36,086 nt of DNA, from the NCBI GenBank assembly GCA_025201365.1, contig JAIXMF010000121.1, positions 1-36,086 of the forward strand, read 5' to 3'. Both the position numbers and the translations under genes were made by a program. Of this stretch, positions 3,357 through 34,354 are shown piece after piece (position 1 is the first letter of the stretch; each line of letters starts with the position of its first letter). The notes below the pieces were generated by a model. That model had not been told where the DNA came from and made no database searches. It was given only the letters and a program-made list of their open reading frames with translations. Source of the stretch: Syncephalis plumigaleata (taxonomy: Eukaryota > Zoopagomycota > Zoopagomycetes > Zoopagales > Piptocephalidaceae).

Positions 3357-3454
3357 AGTGGAGTGGAATAAGAAAGGCGATATGGGATAGAGTAATACAA
3401 TGATGTTATTTTAATCAAGAATACATAAATAAATCATACACAAGCGTAGATAAC

Positions 3455-3845
3455 AATGAAGCATGGTGTTCAAGTATTTCTAATTGACGAGATATCCTAT
3501 TGTCACTTGTCATGCCTTCTTAATATGAGTACAATTTATAACAATATACTAATTCATTATACTGTTAGATGCACACATCAGAATTGTAAAGATGACATGA
3601 AAGGTAAAGGATTCGAGTATCGTGTATGGAAACGGGATATGGCAGCATGTCTGAATGTTATTCAGATTATTCTCAGTCTTTGCAATGGAAACGGTGTTCC
3701 AACACAACTACATCAAAGTGCCATTACTTCTAAACATTCAAGAAATGAAGGACAACAAGAAACAACTTATTCGAGATTGTTATCGCTTTCACATCTAAAT
3801 ACGTATTATCATAGCTATTATTTATTAGTAGAAACAAAAGGCTAG
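3455..3845 (+). pseudogene. Decayed Fanzor (TnpB-like) remnant, copy 2
   Basis: A second, shorter remnant of the same family as the one at 48-744, in the same direction. It reads HGVQVFLIDE near 3464-3493, then jumps to RCTHQNCKD (about 3567) and FEYRVWKRDMAACLNVIQII (about 3611-3670). Compared with copy 1 it lacks the block between LIDE and HGLLR, which holds the first zinc-ribbon Cys pair, and the linker between the second Cys pair and the RuvC motif. The former intron donor is mutated so the intron is read through. Similarity to copy 1 continues to about 3845. It cannot encode a working nuclease. Confidence 0.65.
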
Positions 3846-7644: not shown

Positions 7645-10600
7645 CTAATTTTGACCATCTGATGCTTTACGTCGTTCCATACGTCGTCTAGCTGATCCTC
7701 GTAATGAACCTGCTGACGTCGAGTCTATATCGTCGAATCCTGCCGCGCTCACTTCCTTTAACAATTCGCGTGTTCGTATAGACACGGATATGCGACGAGA
7801 AGCAGCATCATTATTGCCGACTTGTAATGTGTTGCCACTCTTATTAGAATTACTGCCACTACCACTAGTGCTGGTGGTGTTGACTCCTCGGACACCTCGT
7901 TTCCGTTTCGATGCCTCAGAATCACTGCCTTTACGTAAGGATTCGAGTAAGGAATCCATAACACCTTTATCATCATTCGTATCTAATAAGAATAATATTA
8001 GTATCATGTAATAAAACATCTAATGAATAGAGGGGACACCTACCGTCTTTAGCATCTTTGTCTTGTTGAGCACGTTGTGCCAATTGTTGTGCTCGTTCCT
8101 CTTCCGCTTTCTTACGTCGTTCCATACGCTCATCCCTCTCCATTTTGTCTTGATTCTCACGTTGTACACGCTACACTAAGCATTAGACATGCTATTCTGC
8201 ATGAATAATCGTGTTCACCCACCTTGAATGATAGTATAAATGTATGGAAGATGTTAAAGTACTCGTGGGGTGACATCGTATTAGGATCCTCGCCATACAG
8301 TGTTACCGCACGCTCATAGATTTCTTTCATTTCTTGATAGCGTTGATCCAATGCCTCAAATCGAGCCTTGGCTGTTTCTATGAAATTGTAAACATATCGG
8401 TTAAGGTATACATTCTAGTGATGAGTTTTAGACAACAAGTAACATAAAGGATATCTTCATCACAGTGCCAAAGGCATCCTCAGGTGATTTACTCTTCTTG
8501 CCCTTGTAATGAGTGTCTAATTCCGTTATAATCTCCGAGATACGCACTTTCATCTCATTATACTCGAGATTCAATTCCGTAAATGCCACTATTATCAACA
8601 GATTAGCTATTCTATTTCTACTTATTCAATCGATGCTTACCTTGACGTGCATCAGATAGTGACGCTAATTCATCCATAAATGATAATAAATCAGGGAATT
8701 TATTCTCAAGTACAGTAGCCAAAAAGTGTAACAATGTCGTAGAACCATCTTCAGCTTTCGTGTCGATCAACTAGTAGTTACAATAGACAACAACAACAAT
8801 AATGATTAATATATTGTATATCAATGCTATTCAACATTACTTACTCGATTAATACTTTGAATCTTAATGGCTTGTGCATTACCACGGAATCCTTGACCAT
8901 TCATGTAGTTACCCATCATTAGAATAACTTCAAGAATCTTGGGGAATGATCGACTGTTTTGCAGATCAGTTGCAGCACGATGTACTGCCTCCACAGCCTA
9001 TATTACATATATATATATGTGTGTGTTATTAGTAAATACGCAATTAATGCTATGTAAATACGTACATTATCAACATCAATAAATCGTTCTTCAAATGTTT
9101 TACGGAAGTTCATTGCTTGTAAACGTTGTTCATATCGATCAATTTGTATAATCTATAAGAATGATTAATAACAAAGTAATCATAATACAGTGTTAAATAT
9201 TACTTACCTCAATCATAAATGCATCTGCACGAGCTAGTCCACTAGTATCATCTGTGTACTTGGCAAGTGCCACACGCTATAATACATATTATTGTTACTA
9301 CTCAATATATTATAATGTACAAGCAACACTTACTTCTTCCGCTGTAGGTGTAAATGTAGCCAATTGACGAAGTAATGGTTCAGTTAACATTTCATGATCA
9401 ACTGATAGGATTGCCTGTCGAATTTCTGTATTTGAGTATTGCTTAAGACGACTTAATACAATATCTTTATATATGTCATAAATACTTGTTAATGATCGAT
9501 GCTTATAGTTATATAAACAACACTTACTGATATTCTGACTGCGTTGTGAATCCAATACAGATATCAGTTTGACTTCTTCCTGTACCTTTTCCGCTATTAC
9601 ATGAACAACTCATTAGTTTGATTGCAAGTGTATGTTCATAGAATGCTTACGTTTTGGTTTACGCTCGAATACCTTGGCACTGAACATATCCTCGATCTGG
9701 TCAAAGATACCTTCATCGCCAAACACCTTACTGAACATTTCCTCATCTAATTCACGTCGCTCCATTTCACGTGCCCAAATGGTTTCCTTGAATGCATGGC
9801 CAGCCAGTTTATCCCATTGAAGTGGTTTGAGTTTGCCACGAGCTGTATATTTGGATTCCTTGGCAGGTATGATGCCTATAATAGCATGATGTTAGTTTAT
9901 ACGTATATACACACTATTATTATTAGATACTTGCCAGTAGCCATCTTTGGTGCTGATGGTGGTGGAGGTACATTTGAACCAAATGGAGGAGGAGGAGGTG
10001 GCGGTGGCGGTGGAGGTCCCGTCGAAGAAGATGGTGTACCTGGAAGTGGCGGTGGAGGTGGCGGTGGAGGTCCTGTCGAGGATGGTGTACCTGGAAGTGG
10101 AGGAGGGGGAGGAGGAGGAGGCGGCGGCGGTGGAGGAGGAGGTCCTGCTGAAGCAGGTGATACACCAGTAGAAGCTGTACCAGGGAAAGGAGGTGGAAGT
10201 GGAGGTGGCGGTGGAGGGGGTGGCAGAGGTATAGCTGTATCCTTTGTATCTACTACTGCAGGTTTCTCCACCGGTAAGCTTGTTGTATCTGGCGTGGCCT
10301 CCACTGGACTAGACACCACCACATTTTCGGATTCTTTCTCATCGTCACTCTCCTCATCCTTACGCTTTTGACGAATCGATTCCATTAATGCCTCGCGTAA
10401 TGGTTTCGACGAGGACATTTGCGTCTCCTTAATATCACTAAATGAAATGGTCTGACGTTTACTCGGCGGTACTGGCAATGGTTTCATAGAGCCACTACTG
10501 TTACGTCTATGAGATGATGTGGCATCATCAGTCGGTGATGTAGGCGATGTAGGCGATGCTAAACCATTACTATCGAATTCCGTAATAACTGCTTGCAATG

Positions 10601-13371
10601 ACTCTAACTTGTCGATAGAACCGGCCAATGATGGTGTACCTGCCAAGCTGAACTTTCTACGTGATCGACGACCTGCACCACTTGTTGGCGATGTAATAGG
10701 CGATGATGTCGTCGACGATGTCGATGATCCAAATGTTGTATCCTCCTTACCAAATGTTGTAGCAACTGTTGTTGGTCTAAGCGTTTCAATGAATGCCTTC
10801 TTATTACGCATTGCAACAGTGTCAACACCTGAACCTGATAATCTTGGTCGATTGCTCTATTATTCATATATATATATATATACATTGTTATCCCTCTAAT
10901 TATTGTTATTGTCATCGTTGTAACTAACCTCATTCCATATCATGCCACGATCTTGTTTTAGTTTTTCAATTTCCTTTAACAATGCATTATGCGTAATATT
11001 CGGTACACCTTGTACAGCTGTTTTACCGGGAATTGCCTTATCATTATCCGGCCATAGCATTTGCTTCATAAGACGATTCTCTACGATTAGACTTTCACGC
11101 GCATTGACAAGTAGCGTGTTCTCCTCGGCTTCATCCTTCAATGCATCGTACAACTGCTGCAACTGCTTATCTTGTTCGCACAATTTCAAGTGATATTGCG
11201 TACGTAATTGAGACACTTGATCCTGAAGCGATTTAACCGTTGTACGCGACATACGCAATAGATCCTCTAATGATTTATTGCGCTCTTGCAACTGGTTCAC
11301 CATACCATCTGGTAATAGCAATTAGTCTAACATCAACTTGAATCTACATCGAATAACCGCCCAATCTACGTACCTGCACCCAATTTGACTTGTTGTTCTA
11401 GTTCAACATTTCGTTTATGTGTTTGATCGAGTTTCCGCTTGATGGTGACAAAGTCTCGTTGCATTCGTTGCAACTTCTCCTCGTTATTGAATCCGGAAAT
11501 AACCGATTTTACAGAAATGCCGTATGTCGTCGAGAATTCATCGTTTATGCCACGACGATCGAGAACAATTTGCGTGATTAGACGATCGATTAAATGGAAA
11601 TACTGTACACGTGTGTCGTCATCGTCGCGCAGCAATAGCAAATGCTGTAGTGCCGATAGTAAATGATCATGCGCCTTGGTGCCCTCCACCGATTTGAGCA
11701 GTGTCTCCATGATTTCTGCCGGACTATTCATATCAGGCATGGCAAATGCATGGTTAAAGTCCATCAACTCGGCCTGATCATCTTCTGATTCGCGTTGATA
11801 CTTGTTCAACTGAAGTATAATCAAGTCATTTGCGAACTCCTTGATCGTACGTAATAGACGTGCCAATCCACAGGCATTCAACTGGTTGCGGTAGTGTTGT
11901 CGTAGATCGACTTCATCGCACACACCCACGACAGCATTGACTAGAATGATATTTGATAGCTAATAAAAAGTATATTAATGTCAAATTATGTATATACCAT
12001 TTCAATAGATTCTAATTACTTACCACATACTCTAGTAATTCTCGATCGGATCCTAGACGACGATATTCGTCGCTAGCACCAACCATACTACCCATACGAC
12101 CACGACCCTCGATTGTCTGCTCGAGTACTCCCATCCAGGGACCGAAACGATGTCGACTCTGTCGCACCGATTGCAACTTGTCCATGGCACGAACGACAAG
12201 AGCGTGTCCATGTGGAATATCACAGTAACAAATAAATGTTAACACTTCCGCCACCAATCGGCGTGTAATAATGCTAGGACTGTCCAGAGAAAGTGCCAAA
12301 TTGAATATGGACACTTCATTGTTGAGAGCATCGCGTGTACCCCACTATATACATATATACGTAATTAGTATTGCTTTTTATCGTACAATTAATGATGACA
12401 GATTATAACTAACCTTATTATTTAGTAGGGATTTTAAACATTTGACAATCTCAATCTCAATATTAATTTCATTTTCTCGTCTAATCCAATGTTTACATTA
12501 TAGATTAGCTATCCTTATCAAATACATGCTCATTACTTTTACTTACCGATTCATACGACTATTAATAACACCTAATGCATCCCATACAAGTTGTGTGCCT
12601 CGTAGATCGATGAATTGACGTACCCATCTATATTGATCATAACAATTAATTAATTATTACTAACAACTAGGATATAACTTACGCTATGGGTTGAGTAGTC
12701 AAAGAGACACGAAGTGCTGTCCATGTCTTTAGTGGAATACTTCGTACATCTGATTCTGCCATTTTCTTAACATAATACTCGGGTGTTGACCGATCCTTAC
12801 TACCATTACGATTGGCTTTATCCTATTCATATTATTATTACAACTAGTTCTACATACATATGTATATATTCATTCACTTACCGCGCTAATCTGCTTGAAC
12901 TGACTAGATTGAACAATTTTCAATTTGTTTTGAAAAGACATTTCGCGCATTTGCTTTCTTTGTGCTTCGCCTAATCCCATGGATTCCTATAATCATGCAA
13001 ACAAACAAAATAGCTTAAGTTTGCAATCCTATACTATTCAGCAGTTATCTTACCATAATTTGCTCTAGCATTTCATCGAGTACCGCTTGTTCACTAGGAC
13101 GGTCAGAGTTCAAACTACCCGAACCATCTGATATATTCGACATTCGACTGGACACGGTAGACGATGCAGATAGCGATGAATTACGCGCTTCTGCCCATGA
13201 TCCCGATGTATGTGACGGCGACATTGGTGTTGCTGAGCCATGTCCACTAGGACCAGTATCGTTACCTGTCGGCGATACGGTAGGTGCCGATATGGACATG
13301 GCCGTCACCGGGGGAGTGATACTACTCTGACTCCCCCCTTTATTACGCTTGCGACGGAAGAACGGCTCCAT
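7645..13371 (-). CDS. Diaphanous-related formin (Bni1/SepA type)
   Basis: Twenty exons encode 1514 residues: complement(7645..7982, 8044..8170, 8223..8387, 8455..8588, 8641..8770, 8845..8997, 9066..9152, 9208..9276, 9334..9464, 9528..9593, 9651..9875, 9935..10856, 10929..11308, 11374..11959, 12024..12344, 12414..12480, 12547..12627, 12683..12822, 12882..12986, 13054..13371). Formins nucleate and processively elongate actin cables for polarity and cytokinesis. In order: Ser/Pro-rich N-terminus; GTPase-binding/FH3 armadillo region (about 100-540, with WVRQFIDLRGTQLVWDAL); coiled coil (about 545-630); Pro-rich FH1 (about 875-970); FH2 from KLKPLQWDKL, containing GNYMNGQGFRGNA and TTLLHFLA; and a textbook DAD, GVMDSLLESLRKGS followed by KRKRG, implying Rho-relieved autoinhibition. 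Intron 8388-8454 is AT-AC and 9876-9934 is GC-AG. The upstream in-frame GTG at 13389 was rejected in favour of the ATG. Confidence 0.95.
8388..8454 (-). other. U12-type AT-AC intron in the formin FH2 domain
   Basis: Read on the minus strand, the exon ends ...GTGATGAAG and the intron opens ATATCCTTT, matching the minor-spliceosome 5' splice site exactly. CCTTAAC (plus 8400-8406) matches the U12 branch-site core and lies 13 nt before the terminal AC (TTTAC). Using this AC joins GTVMK to NFIETAKARFEALD in frame, as expected for FH2. The nearby AG 10 nt later would shift frame and hit a stop. Confidence 0.9.
9876..9934 (-). other. GC-AG intron between FH1 and FH2 of the formin
   Basis: The exon ends KMATG with ACTG|GCAAGTATC, and the acceptor is TATTATAG|GC. 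Only the GC donor (phase 1) keeps frame into IIPAKESKYTARGKLKPL. The GT two bases further in changes frame and leads to an early stop. Confidence 0.88.
9955..10235 (-). repeat. Low-complexity poly-proline tract of formin FH1
   Basis: GGT/GGA/GGC-rich on the plus strand, encoding blocks of 7 to about 15 consecutive prolines separated by GTPSST- and GSNV-like spacers on the minus strand. FH1 prolines bind profilin-actin. The near-repeated spacer GTPSSTG/GTPSSSTG points to growth by replication slippage or unequal exchange. Confidence 0.9.
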
Positions 13372-30554: not shown

Positions 30555-33500
30555 TCATTCCACCATTTGAGCCGGTAATTGCGGTAATGGCTTATCCTCC
30601 TTGGATGCTGATGATGGTGTCGATTCAGGCTTAGGTGATGGCTTCCTACCCCATGCAATGTAAATGTTAATGAATCCTTTGGTTTGTTCCGTTTCCTTCT
30701 CTAACGCATCGAGTGCTTGTTCCAACATGATACGCGTCACGCCAATGGCCGTAAAGTGCATTGCTAATCCTAGTATAAACTGACGATACGTTTGCTGATG
30801 CGTATTGCCAATGCGACCACCCCATTCGCCTAATGGGCATGGTAATGTTTGATCGCGTACACGTTCGAATTTAGATTTACGTAAAATACTACGTAATGTC
30901 TGTGGCATGTCCACTTGTATGGCGTGATGTTCGCATAGACGCTTGAACCAGTCATTCAACTGATCGCCCTGTGGTCCAATGGATCTCAATAAATGATCGG
31001 TCTCCACTAGTTCGATATGTCCACCGTGTGATAGGATACGCTGCCATTCCAGTCCGATAGTTGGCCATCCGTCATTAGTAGTAGGGAAGGCGAGTAGCAT
31101 TTGTCGTTGATAAACATAGTCGAAATAGCCATCAGGATAGGGTAGACCTATGTCATTATTAACATTAGCATTAACACTAATTAGTCATTACGACAGTGGC
31201 TTACCTTTCATAATATCGCCATATTGAAAACTGCATTGCGGACTAATGGATGCGGTTGGCATGATCTCTTCGTCATTATCACAACCGTGTATCTCGCAGA
31301 ATGGATACTCTTCCGCCATACTCTAAGCAATAACAAACAAGTGTACATGATGATGTTTAGCTTCTTCTTCATCTTCTATATGACAATGCCATGTTATTAC
31401 CTTTACCCATCCACCGGTGCCTGTGCCTAGATCTAATACACGTTTTGGTTGTGTAATAGGTGCCATGCATAGTGTGCCTAGAAAGTGTAGTAGCATGTTG
31501 TGTTGACTGTCCAATCTAGCATAATATAATATAATATAATTGATTAGTGAGCATAACCTTGTTGTACGTGTGGTTTACCTTTCCAATTCCTCGGTACATC
31601 TTGGTATCAAGTAGACACGCTGATGATGTACCGCCAATGATGACAGGATGTGATGTGGTGCCGTACCCGATCGTGGCCATGACCAACTGTTACGTAGTAC
31701 TTGGAATCCTTTCCTTACTCGTTTCGTTAGTACCTCTGCGGGTGGACGTAGTTTCGACGATGAAGACAGCACTACGGCATTTGACGTAATAATTGATGAT
31801 GTCGATGATTCCATGTCTATATGGCTGGAATTGTTGCCATTCTCATCGGATGGTCGATACGCCAAGTAGCAGTAGAGTTGCAGGTGGACATGATGCTTCG
31901 TGTCGCATTCCTCTTCCAACTCTTGTAGCATCGCATTCAATTCCTCTACCGTCACACCGAGTGTTTGTATAAATGGAAACAACTGTTCCACGCGTGCTCT
32001 ATAGTATCGCTTAGCGCAAATCCCTTCGAGTCCGGCCCATTTGCCCATACGCAGCTGACGAATAGTACGTGTGATGTCGTGGAATCCCGTGGACACTAGT
32101 CGACGATCGATGGTGGCCACTCGACCTACACCCAGCTTATGGCGTGCTGCCGCCGTTGTAATCAGTCCGTTCAGCTTACGACTCGCTTGACTCTTTCCGG
32201 TGATTTGCAAATCACACTCGATGATCTCGATTAATCCACCGGGCAATAGCATTCGGTACATTTCCTTGAATGCTGACAACCACTCGATTTCCGCATTGGC
32301 TACATCTAGTGCCATATCACGCTGATAAATATAATCGAAATAGGTATTAGGATAAGGTAGACCTAAGTACTAATTATTAGTATACATACATACATATACA
32401 TACATTATTGTTACAATGATAATTACCTTGAACAATGTTGCCCTTGGCTAGTATGCAATTAGATGCTAATGGAGTATGTGTATCGAAATGCTGTTCAATA
32501 AGATCAATACCGGTAAATTCAGTCATTGGATATTTATTAGCGGTATCCTATAATAACAGTAATAATAATAAAAGCAATATTATTGTTAATCTACTTTGGT
32601 ATATTATTGTAGCATCAATAATGATATCGTACCTTGATCCATACACCGGTACCGGTGGCAACGTTAAGAATACGACGTGGTTGTTGCAAGATAGCCGCAT
32701 GTGTACCGTGTAATGCAGTCATCATGGCTACATGAAGTGTATCCGCACTAATAATAATAACATCGATCGTTCATTACTACGACTATCCCGTATGACTTAT
32801 TCATATTACTTACTCGTGTACATGACGACCAAATCCCATGACTGTTTGTCGACGACGTATTGTACGCTGTTTCTTTAGCGTGCCAACAAACTGCGAGAAT
32901 GTATGAGCCACCGAGATACGACGCTGATGCGTGGGTGTGGCTGTCGTGGCAGTTGCGGCAATCATAGAATGCGGTCGATTATATATCACGGATCGTCTAC
33001 GTGCTTGGGCCAGAATAGATGGCGATGTTGCGGTATTGATGCTAGCAGCATTGATCTCCTCCGGTGAAGATGCACCACCGAACAGCGTGTGTCGCCATTG
33101 TGATGGTGAAGATAGTACCTTGTTCCTTAATCGAACGGGTACTGCTGATTCGGATTGAACTTGATCGACAGACAATGATCTAGTGCCATTGTTATTATAT
33201 AGTTATATATAGATAGCTGTATAGATAGATTGCTTACCTACGATGACTTGTCATTGGTATGGATTTGGGTGGTGATGGATGTTCATTCATGGAGGAGCAT
33301 GATGATGAGGATCGATGTCCTGATGACGATGACAGTCTAGGTAAAGTGGTGGCACGCCATACACTAATAAACATCTTACTGCCGGACTTTTGTATTGCTT
33401 CATGATACTCCTCGATGGCTGTGTCCAACTGCGATTCCGTCACTTCTGGCAAGGTTAGAATACGTTCGCGTAATTGCTGCCATGCTTGACGTGAACACGC

Positions 33501-34354
33501 TAATCCCACCGATGGACTGGATGTATTCATGGGAATGGCAATGACACTTTGTTGCACACTATTGCAATGTTGACGCAATGCCGTATTGATATGATCGGCC
33601 GGTATGATAATCGAGGTGTCACTGTCATCCGGACAATGGAGCCGTTTAAGCCATCCTCGCAGTTGATGTCCGGCCGGCAAGTCTAGCGGGATTAGATTCG
33701 GGGGTAGGAACAAGTCGAGACGAGCACCTGGTCGGGCTACCCGACACAACTCCGCGATAACTTGTGCCCAATTAGTAGGCCTATACTCGCTCCATAATAA
33801 TGGAACGCAAAAACGAATATAATCGAATTGGTGGTCAGCAAGTGACAGTCCTATGTGGAGTAAACAGATGAGTGATCACCGAATTAGTCTATATGTAGAC
33901 ATATGTAGACATATGTATGTGTATGTACATATGTAAGCTAGTGTGTTACCTTGTCGAATGTCTGCTTTAATGGCCACGCATCCCGGTGGCAGTGGGTGAT
34001 AGTCGGTGTTTTCACCTTGGCTATCACTCGTATTATTATTAGTGGTGGTAGTACTAGTAGTAGTATTGAGTAGCGAACCACATGCAATGTGTCGTCCACC
34101 CGGATGAGTCTTGACCGTCTTCTAAACTCTCGTCATTCGTGTTAGTTCACCTTGTTATATCACTCTTAAACAGGGAACAAAGCAGCTCGTATACTACGCT
34201 AACTCACCTCTATCCATTGAGTGTCGCAAGCCTCAACGTCCAACGTCGAGTTACTTGACGGTAATGGCGACCATAAATGACCCAAATGTGATTCCAACCA
34301 GTGGTTCTGTCTTTTGACAAGTTCGACACGCGCTTGCTCTGAAGCAACTGCCAT
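30555..34354 (-). CDS. Triple-module class I SAM methyltransferase fusion (LaeA/UMTA-like)
   Basis: Ten exons encode 1047 residues: complement(30555..31147, 31205..31322, 31401..31515, 31579..32362, 32427..32547, 32633..32747, 32814..33179, 33238..33850, 34121..34208 replaced by 33950..34121, 34208..34354), i.e. the last two exons are 33950..34121 and 34208..34354. Three successive Rossmann methyltransferase units are in one frame. Unit 2 (about 430-720) has motif I ILNVATGTGVW at 459-469, then GLPYPNTYFDYIYQR and LLPGGLIEIIE. Unit 3 (about 770-1020) has RVLDLGTGTGGW at 798-809, GLPYPDGYFDYVYQR and LSHGGHIELVE. Unit 1 (1-290) keeps GLSLADHQFDYIRF and VARPGARLDLF but its motif I is LDVEACDTQW, so SAM binding is doubtful. 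A Ser/Arg-rich linker joins units 1 and 2. Substrate unknown. Internal ATG-less junctions argue against three genes. Confidence 0.88.

Follow-up and report, generated by a model that had tools for sequence, protein, structure and literature searches.

The question raised by this locus is which spliceosome removes a 67-nt segment that interrupts the FH2 domain of a predicted formin gene. The window, meaning the whole 36,086-nucleotide stretch that was analyzed, comprises all of one contig (C26) of the Syncephalis plumigaleata (Zoopagales) assembly, a host that is zygomycete-grade, a grade in which, as a sequence-only reading of the window noted, some fungi have been reported to carry U12-type introns. 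Its minus strand carries a predicted gene of 20 exons (7645..13371, the gene ends being predictions), modeled with a small purpose-written gene-finder that gives a bonus for the U12 splice motif. In a Pfam search, the product matched Drf_GBD (152.5 bits), Drf_FH3 (151.8 bits) and FH2 (289.9 bits), all above cut-off, together with a DAD match at the C terminus that, at 19.7 bits, falls below its cut-off of 27.3; this is the GBD, FH3, FH2 and C-terminal DAD arrangement of a diaphanous-related formin. The closest FH2 match in the first protein search came from Basidiobolus, at 41%. The evidence set out below, drawn from sequence comparisons, indicates that the segment at 8454-8388 on the minus strand is almost certainly a U12-type AT-AC spliceosomal intron, which would be removed by the minor spliceosome.

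Taken in reverse complement, positions 8388-8454 give a 67-nt sequence, ATATCCTTT...CCTTAACCGATATGTTTAC, and the coordinates, strand and sequence originally claimed for the intron are right. On the minus strand, the 5′ splice site ATATCCTTT (8446..8454) agrees with the U12 consensus RTATCCTT, the branch-site motif CCTTAAC (8400..8406) is near TTCCTTRAY and lies not far from the 3′ end, and the terminal AC occupies 8388..8389. Counting this AC, there are 12 nt from CCTTAAC to the intron end, within one base of the 13 nt first reported. The full motif occurs a single time in the window and in none of 100 dinucleotide-preserving shuffles. The six gene models predicted in the window contain 54 introns, of which 53 are GT-AG and one, at 8388-8454, is AT-AC; a few may be artefacts because one model fuses two genes, eRF1 and a gene that we take to be MED18-like. 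When scored against the U12 5′ splice site, ATATCCTTT reaches 9/9, while the next best of the 54 introns reaches 6, and CCTTAAC scores 7/7 as a branch site compared with 5 or less for the seven other introns listed. The earlier view that the other introns traced in the window look U2-type is matched by the 53 GT-AG introns of the models, one of which, at 9876-9934 in the formin gene (minus strand), is better read as GC-AG (GCAAGT...TATAG, 59 nt), yielding ...KMATGIIPAKESKYTARGKLKPLQWDKL and bringing the product near the Thamnocephalis protein P0156. Since some AT-AC introns are U2-dependent, the major spliceosome could in principle excise the segment despite its AT-AC ends, a reading that the AT-AC ends, and nothing beyond them, favor. 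Yet its 5′ site is not ATAAG-like, 5′ site and branch site are both typical of U12 introns, and the 53 other model introns have GTAAGT-like 5′ sites, so that we consider removal by the major spliceosome very improbable.

Elsewhere in the window, two plus-strand open frames (424-744 and 3450-3845) have in common a cysteine-containing stretch ending YRVW.RDMAACLN and are possibly pieces of a mobile element. A minus-strand gene model at 30555-34354 (1040 aa) appears to contain repeated methyltransferase-like units, a name given by eye. The eRF1 encoded next to the formin gene shares 98% identity with the S. plumigaleata protein; in the same comparison, a 642-aa entry named Adineta steineri (P0035) outscores the Syncephalis eRF1 proteins in bits, at only 63% identity.

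Splicing between 8454 and 8388 would join an FH2 exon that ends ...GGC ACT GTG ATG AAG (8455..8588, minus strand) to one that begins AAT TTC ATA GAA ACA (8223..8387, minus strand), both exons being defined by the gene model and the sequence. The AT-AC ends restore the frame to give ...DAFGTVMK|NFIETAKARF..., with no gap at the junction in an FH2 alignment with 14 other formins (13 fungal and one from mosquito); the junction is flanked by the nearly invariant Met321 and the invariant Phe324, and the Pfam FH2 match extends across it. The sequence-only reading had held that only AT-AC splicing keeps the FH2 frame. This was too strict, as 31 splice pairs keep it (4 GT-AG, 4 GC-AG and the rest with AT-AC, AT-AG or GT-AC ends), but every in-frame pair other than 8454/8388 deletes FH2 residues or adds intron codons at the junction and so damages FH2. 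The in-frame GT-AG and GC-AG pairs nevertheless allow an alternative, in which the U2 spliceosome excises an intron with GT-AG or GC-AG ends, the U12-like motif lying within it by chance, and a Syncephalis pseudoplumigaleata formin model (P0155) that is without the residues matching VMKNFIE looks as though a different junction had been used. We give this alternative very little credence, given that these pairs would cost FH2 some of its conserved residues or add codons from the intron, whereas Met321 and Phe324 stand on either side of the AT-AC junction, and that the exact motif was absent from all the shuffles. The original proposal, a fungal formin with a U12-type AT-AC intron, is supported by the motif, by the FH2 junction and by the three Pfam domains found above cut-off.

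The same site is disturbed in related fungi. Three public formin models, found as shorter entries in a later protein search, are broken at the position of the intron, and two of them read ATATCCTTT as Ile-Ser-Phe right after Met-Lys: a second S. pseudoplumigaleata model (P0157) runs ...FGTVMK-ISF-MMMAVDD... and ends soon after, and the Thamnocephalis sphaerospora model (P0156) runs ...IIMK-ISF-GERVA-ASAKSRF. From these protein letters, we take the three models to reflect one shared intron, with a shared 5′ site, that gene predictors probably overlooked in two genera. Four metagenome proteins (P0158-P0161) show no such insert in the same alignment, which fits either correct splicing or loss.

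If the U12-type AT-AC intron is removed by the established mechanism, ATATCCTTT would pair first with U11 and later with U6atac, an order of contacts taken from that mechanism, while U12 would pair with CCTTAAC and bulge the branch adenosine. Provided that the gene is expressed and spliced, joining to the terminal AC would place Lys next to Asn in phase 0. A retained intron translates as ...MKISFMLLVV followed by a stop, that is, a few residues later and inside FH2; the formin should therefore depend on minor splicing.

We searched the 32.6-Mb assembly for similar introns. A strict AT-AC pattern gave 18 matches and a strict GT-AG U12 pattern gave 9, compared with 0 for the reversed control in both cases; merged by eye as gene copies, the strict matches correspond to 11 AT-AC and 7 GT-AG loci. 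With a looser pattern there were 84 matches, some starts being listed repeatedly, vs. 14 in the control, and 53 distinct cores were examined from the loci fetched among these 84. The gene-finder took 37 of the 53 cores as introns, copies included, which is a biased test because of the fixed bonus given to U12 introns. It used 15 of the 18 strict loci merged by eye, L003 and L015 with an AG end, and passed over the strict GT-AG loci L025, L027 and L028. An intron in an SMC3-like gene is present three times in the assembly (L002, L011 and L012). We then ran Pfam on 21 spliced models, namely 20 of 29 (one of them trimmed) plus the formin FH2, and in 12 of the 21 the junction is clearly spanned by a matched domain (Es2, ChAPs, MIF4G-like, DCP2, MoCoBD_2, BRCT, Dynactin_p22, CDT1_C, Prefoldin, Csf1_N, Alg6_Alg8 and FH2, the Csf1_N match being below its cut-off). 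The 9 models without a clear bridging domain include 3 with no match, 5 with matches that are elsewhere or too weak, and EXOSC1, which is marginal.

The sequence-only reading had also predicted that the genome encodes U11, U12, U4atac and U6atac. Candidates were found for three of them, U11 and U6atac above the Rfam cut-off and U12 below it, while U4atac was not found. The U6atac candidate (L001) scored 33.7 bits, where the cut-off is 33, with none of 14 prokaryote controls matching, and has AAAAGGAGAGA and a terminal stem, GTGTTGA/TCAACAC. The match, L001:1501-1683, covers 183 nt where the model has 126 positions, and some 50 extra bases follow the U4atac-pairing region. An intron inside U6atac was considered and set aside: because the minimum-energy fold accommodates these bases by lengthening a stem region and keeps the terminal stem, we treat the predicted U6atac as probably a long RNA rather than the product of a split gene. 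U11 (L029) reached 53.7 bits in the locus scan, compared with a cut-off of 39, and 35.7 bits, below cut-off, in the genome search; the sequence AUAAAGG at its 5′ end is able to base-pair with CCUUU. For U12, the genome search returned no match at E ≤ 0.001, and at E ≤ 10 it returned two copies (L032 and L033) with 27.4 and 22.8 bits against a cut-off of 53 and a best E of 0.0235, a setting at which 7 of the 14 prokaryote controls also matched. A GAGTAAGGA box and core are common to both copies, the candidate carries TTAATGAGTAAGGATATAAC and, as a possible Sm site, AATATTTGG, and over about 150 nt, between about nt 3 and nt 155, a single base separates the copies, with more differences toward the ends. 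Because the box is present and the two copies are conserved, we accept this candidate as a probable U12 gene in spite of its score. The U11 and U12 pairing energies were discarded as proof, other segments of both RNAs scoring equally well or better.

The Rfam search of the assembly for U4atac gave only matches at E 1.57 and 4.83, at a setting where 11 of the 14 prokaryote controls matched, and two patterns complementary to the U6atac of Syncephalis itself, designed with the human U4atac pairing as guide, gave 0 matches each, results that do not establish its absence. One reading is that Syncephalis lost U4atac, that U4 accompanies U6 as well as a U6atac that has partly converged, and that the system uses three dedicated snRNAs instead of four. 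Stem II of human U4 pairs with the Syncephalis U6atac at -16.2 kcal/mol, compared with -7.7 kcal/mol for human U6atac. The failure to detect U4atac in Lichtheimia as well, in the account given in PMC4133162, counts in the same direction. However, pairing with human U4atac is stronger again (-19.8 kcal/mol), and over 38 bases the Syncephalis U6atac is identical to human U6atac at 23 and to human U6 at 16. We thus view escort by U4 after loss of U4atac as unlikely.

Of the two minor-spliceosome proteins searched for, U11-48K is represented by a weak candidate and CENATAC by no match. The U11-48K family (PF05253) gave 15 sub-threshold matches, the best with 20.0 bits vs. a cut-off of 21.1, and matched 2 of 14 controls, one of them over the cut-off. 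In the four of these 15 loci that were read, a complete CHHC finger was seen in L077 only; the L077 peptide is closer to GTSF1 (E 0.0049) than to U11-48K (E 0.032), and we regard it as a weak candidate for a U11-48K-like finger. CENATAC (PF14968) had no match and no first-look candidate in the assembly, but no control matched either, so that this blank does not establish its absence.

Since U4atac and most minor-specific proteins were not found in the searches run, the intron could also belong to a genome that is losing its minor spliceosome, in which it is no longer spliced and the formin copies are truncated. The contig as a whole is a second copy of part of contig C373, and around the intron the two copies show 40 differences over 3067 positions, of which 4 fall within the intron; thus the middle of the intron varies (4 of 67 bases), whereas the 5′ site, branch site and 3′ end are identical. 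Like introns interrupt the conserved genes DCP2, ALG6/8, CDT1 and prefoldin, and U11 and U6atac genes are present. Taken together, these observations make a dead intron scarcely credible and, as judged from the genome, provide good circumstantial evidence that a minor spliceosome works in Zoopagales. Duplication is seen in other parts of the assembly as well: the small contigs C26, C61, C187, C189, C333 and C344 duplicate stretches of large contigs with slight divergence, as if two haplotypes had been partly assembled apart.

The formin intron is thus a genuine member of the known U12 class, in an order absent from the main text of a 2023 survey of minor introns (PMC10639083). This main text makes no mention of Syncephalis, Zoopagales, Piptocephalis or formin, and the supplement may list such genomes; among the titles and abstracts listed by searches of open-licence papers, none was on minor introns in Syncephalis. 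The result places a working-looking minor spliceosome in an order of mycoparasites and supplies minor-intron candidates in genes for decapping, replication, glycosylation, chaperones and the cytoskeleton. Moreover, the breakage of the public Syncephalis and Thamnocephalis formin models at the intron implies that AT-AC introns can distort gene models of early-diverging fungi, and intron surveys with them.

Minor introns have been reported in the Mucorales Rhizopus and Phycomyces (PMC2846911), numbering about 4 and about 20, respectively, as quoted in the 2023 survey, which describes a pronounced loss of minor introns in the ancestor of Zoopagomycota (PMC10639083). According to the same survey, Basidiobolus meristosporus, which is early-diverging and also belongs to Zoopagomycota, has 249 minor introns, compared with the few dozen pattern-found candidates here, and Rhizophagus irregularis, likewise early-diverging, has all four minor snRNAs and 205 minor introns, whereas in Syncephalis U4atac was not found and candidates again number a few dozen (PMC10639083). 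Lichtheimia, in Mucorales, resembles Syncephalis in its undetected U4atac and in the divergent second half of its U6atac, as described in PMC4133162. AT-AC loci outnumber GT-AG loci here (11 vs. 7), while about 26% of human minor introns are AT-AC (PMC10639083), a difference that is a lead only because our sample is small and pattern-found. With the U12-type AT-AC introns of animals and plants, the formin intron has in common the 5′ site ATATCCTTT, CCTTAAC near the 3′ end and the AC terminus, and candidates for U11, U12 and U6atac are likewise found in the Syncephalis genome.
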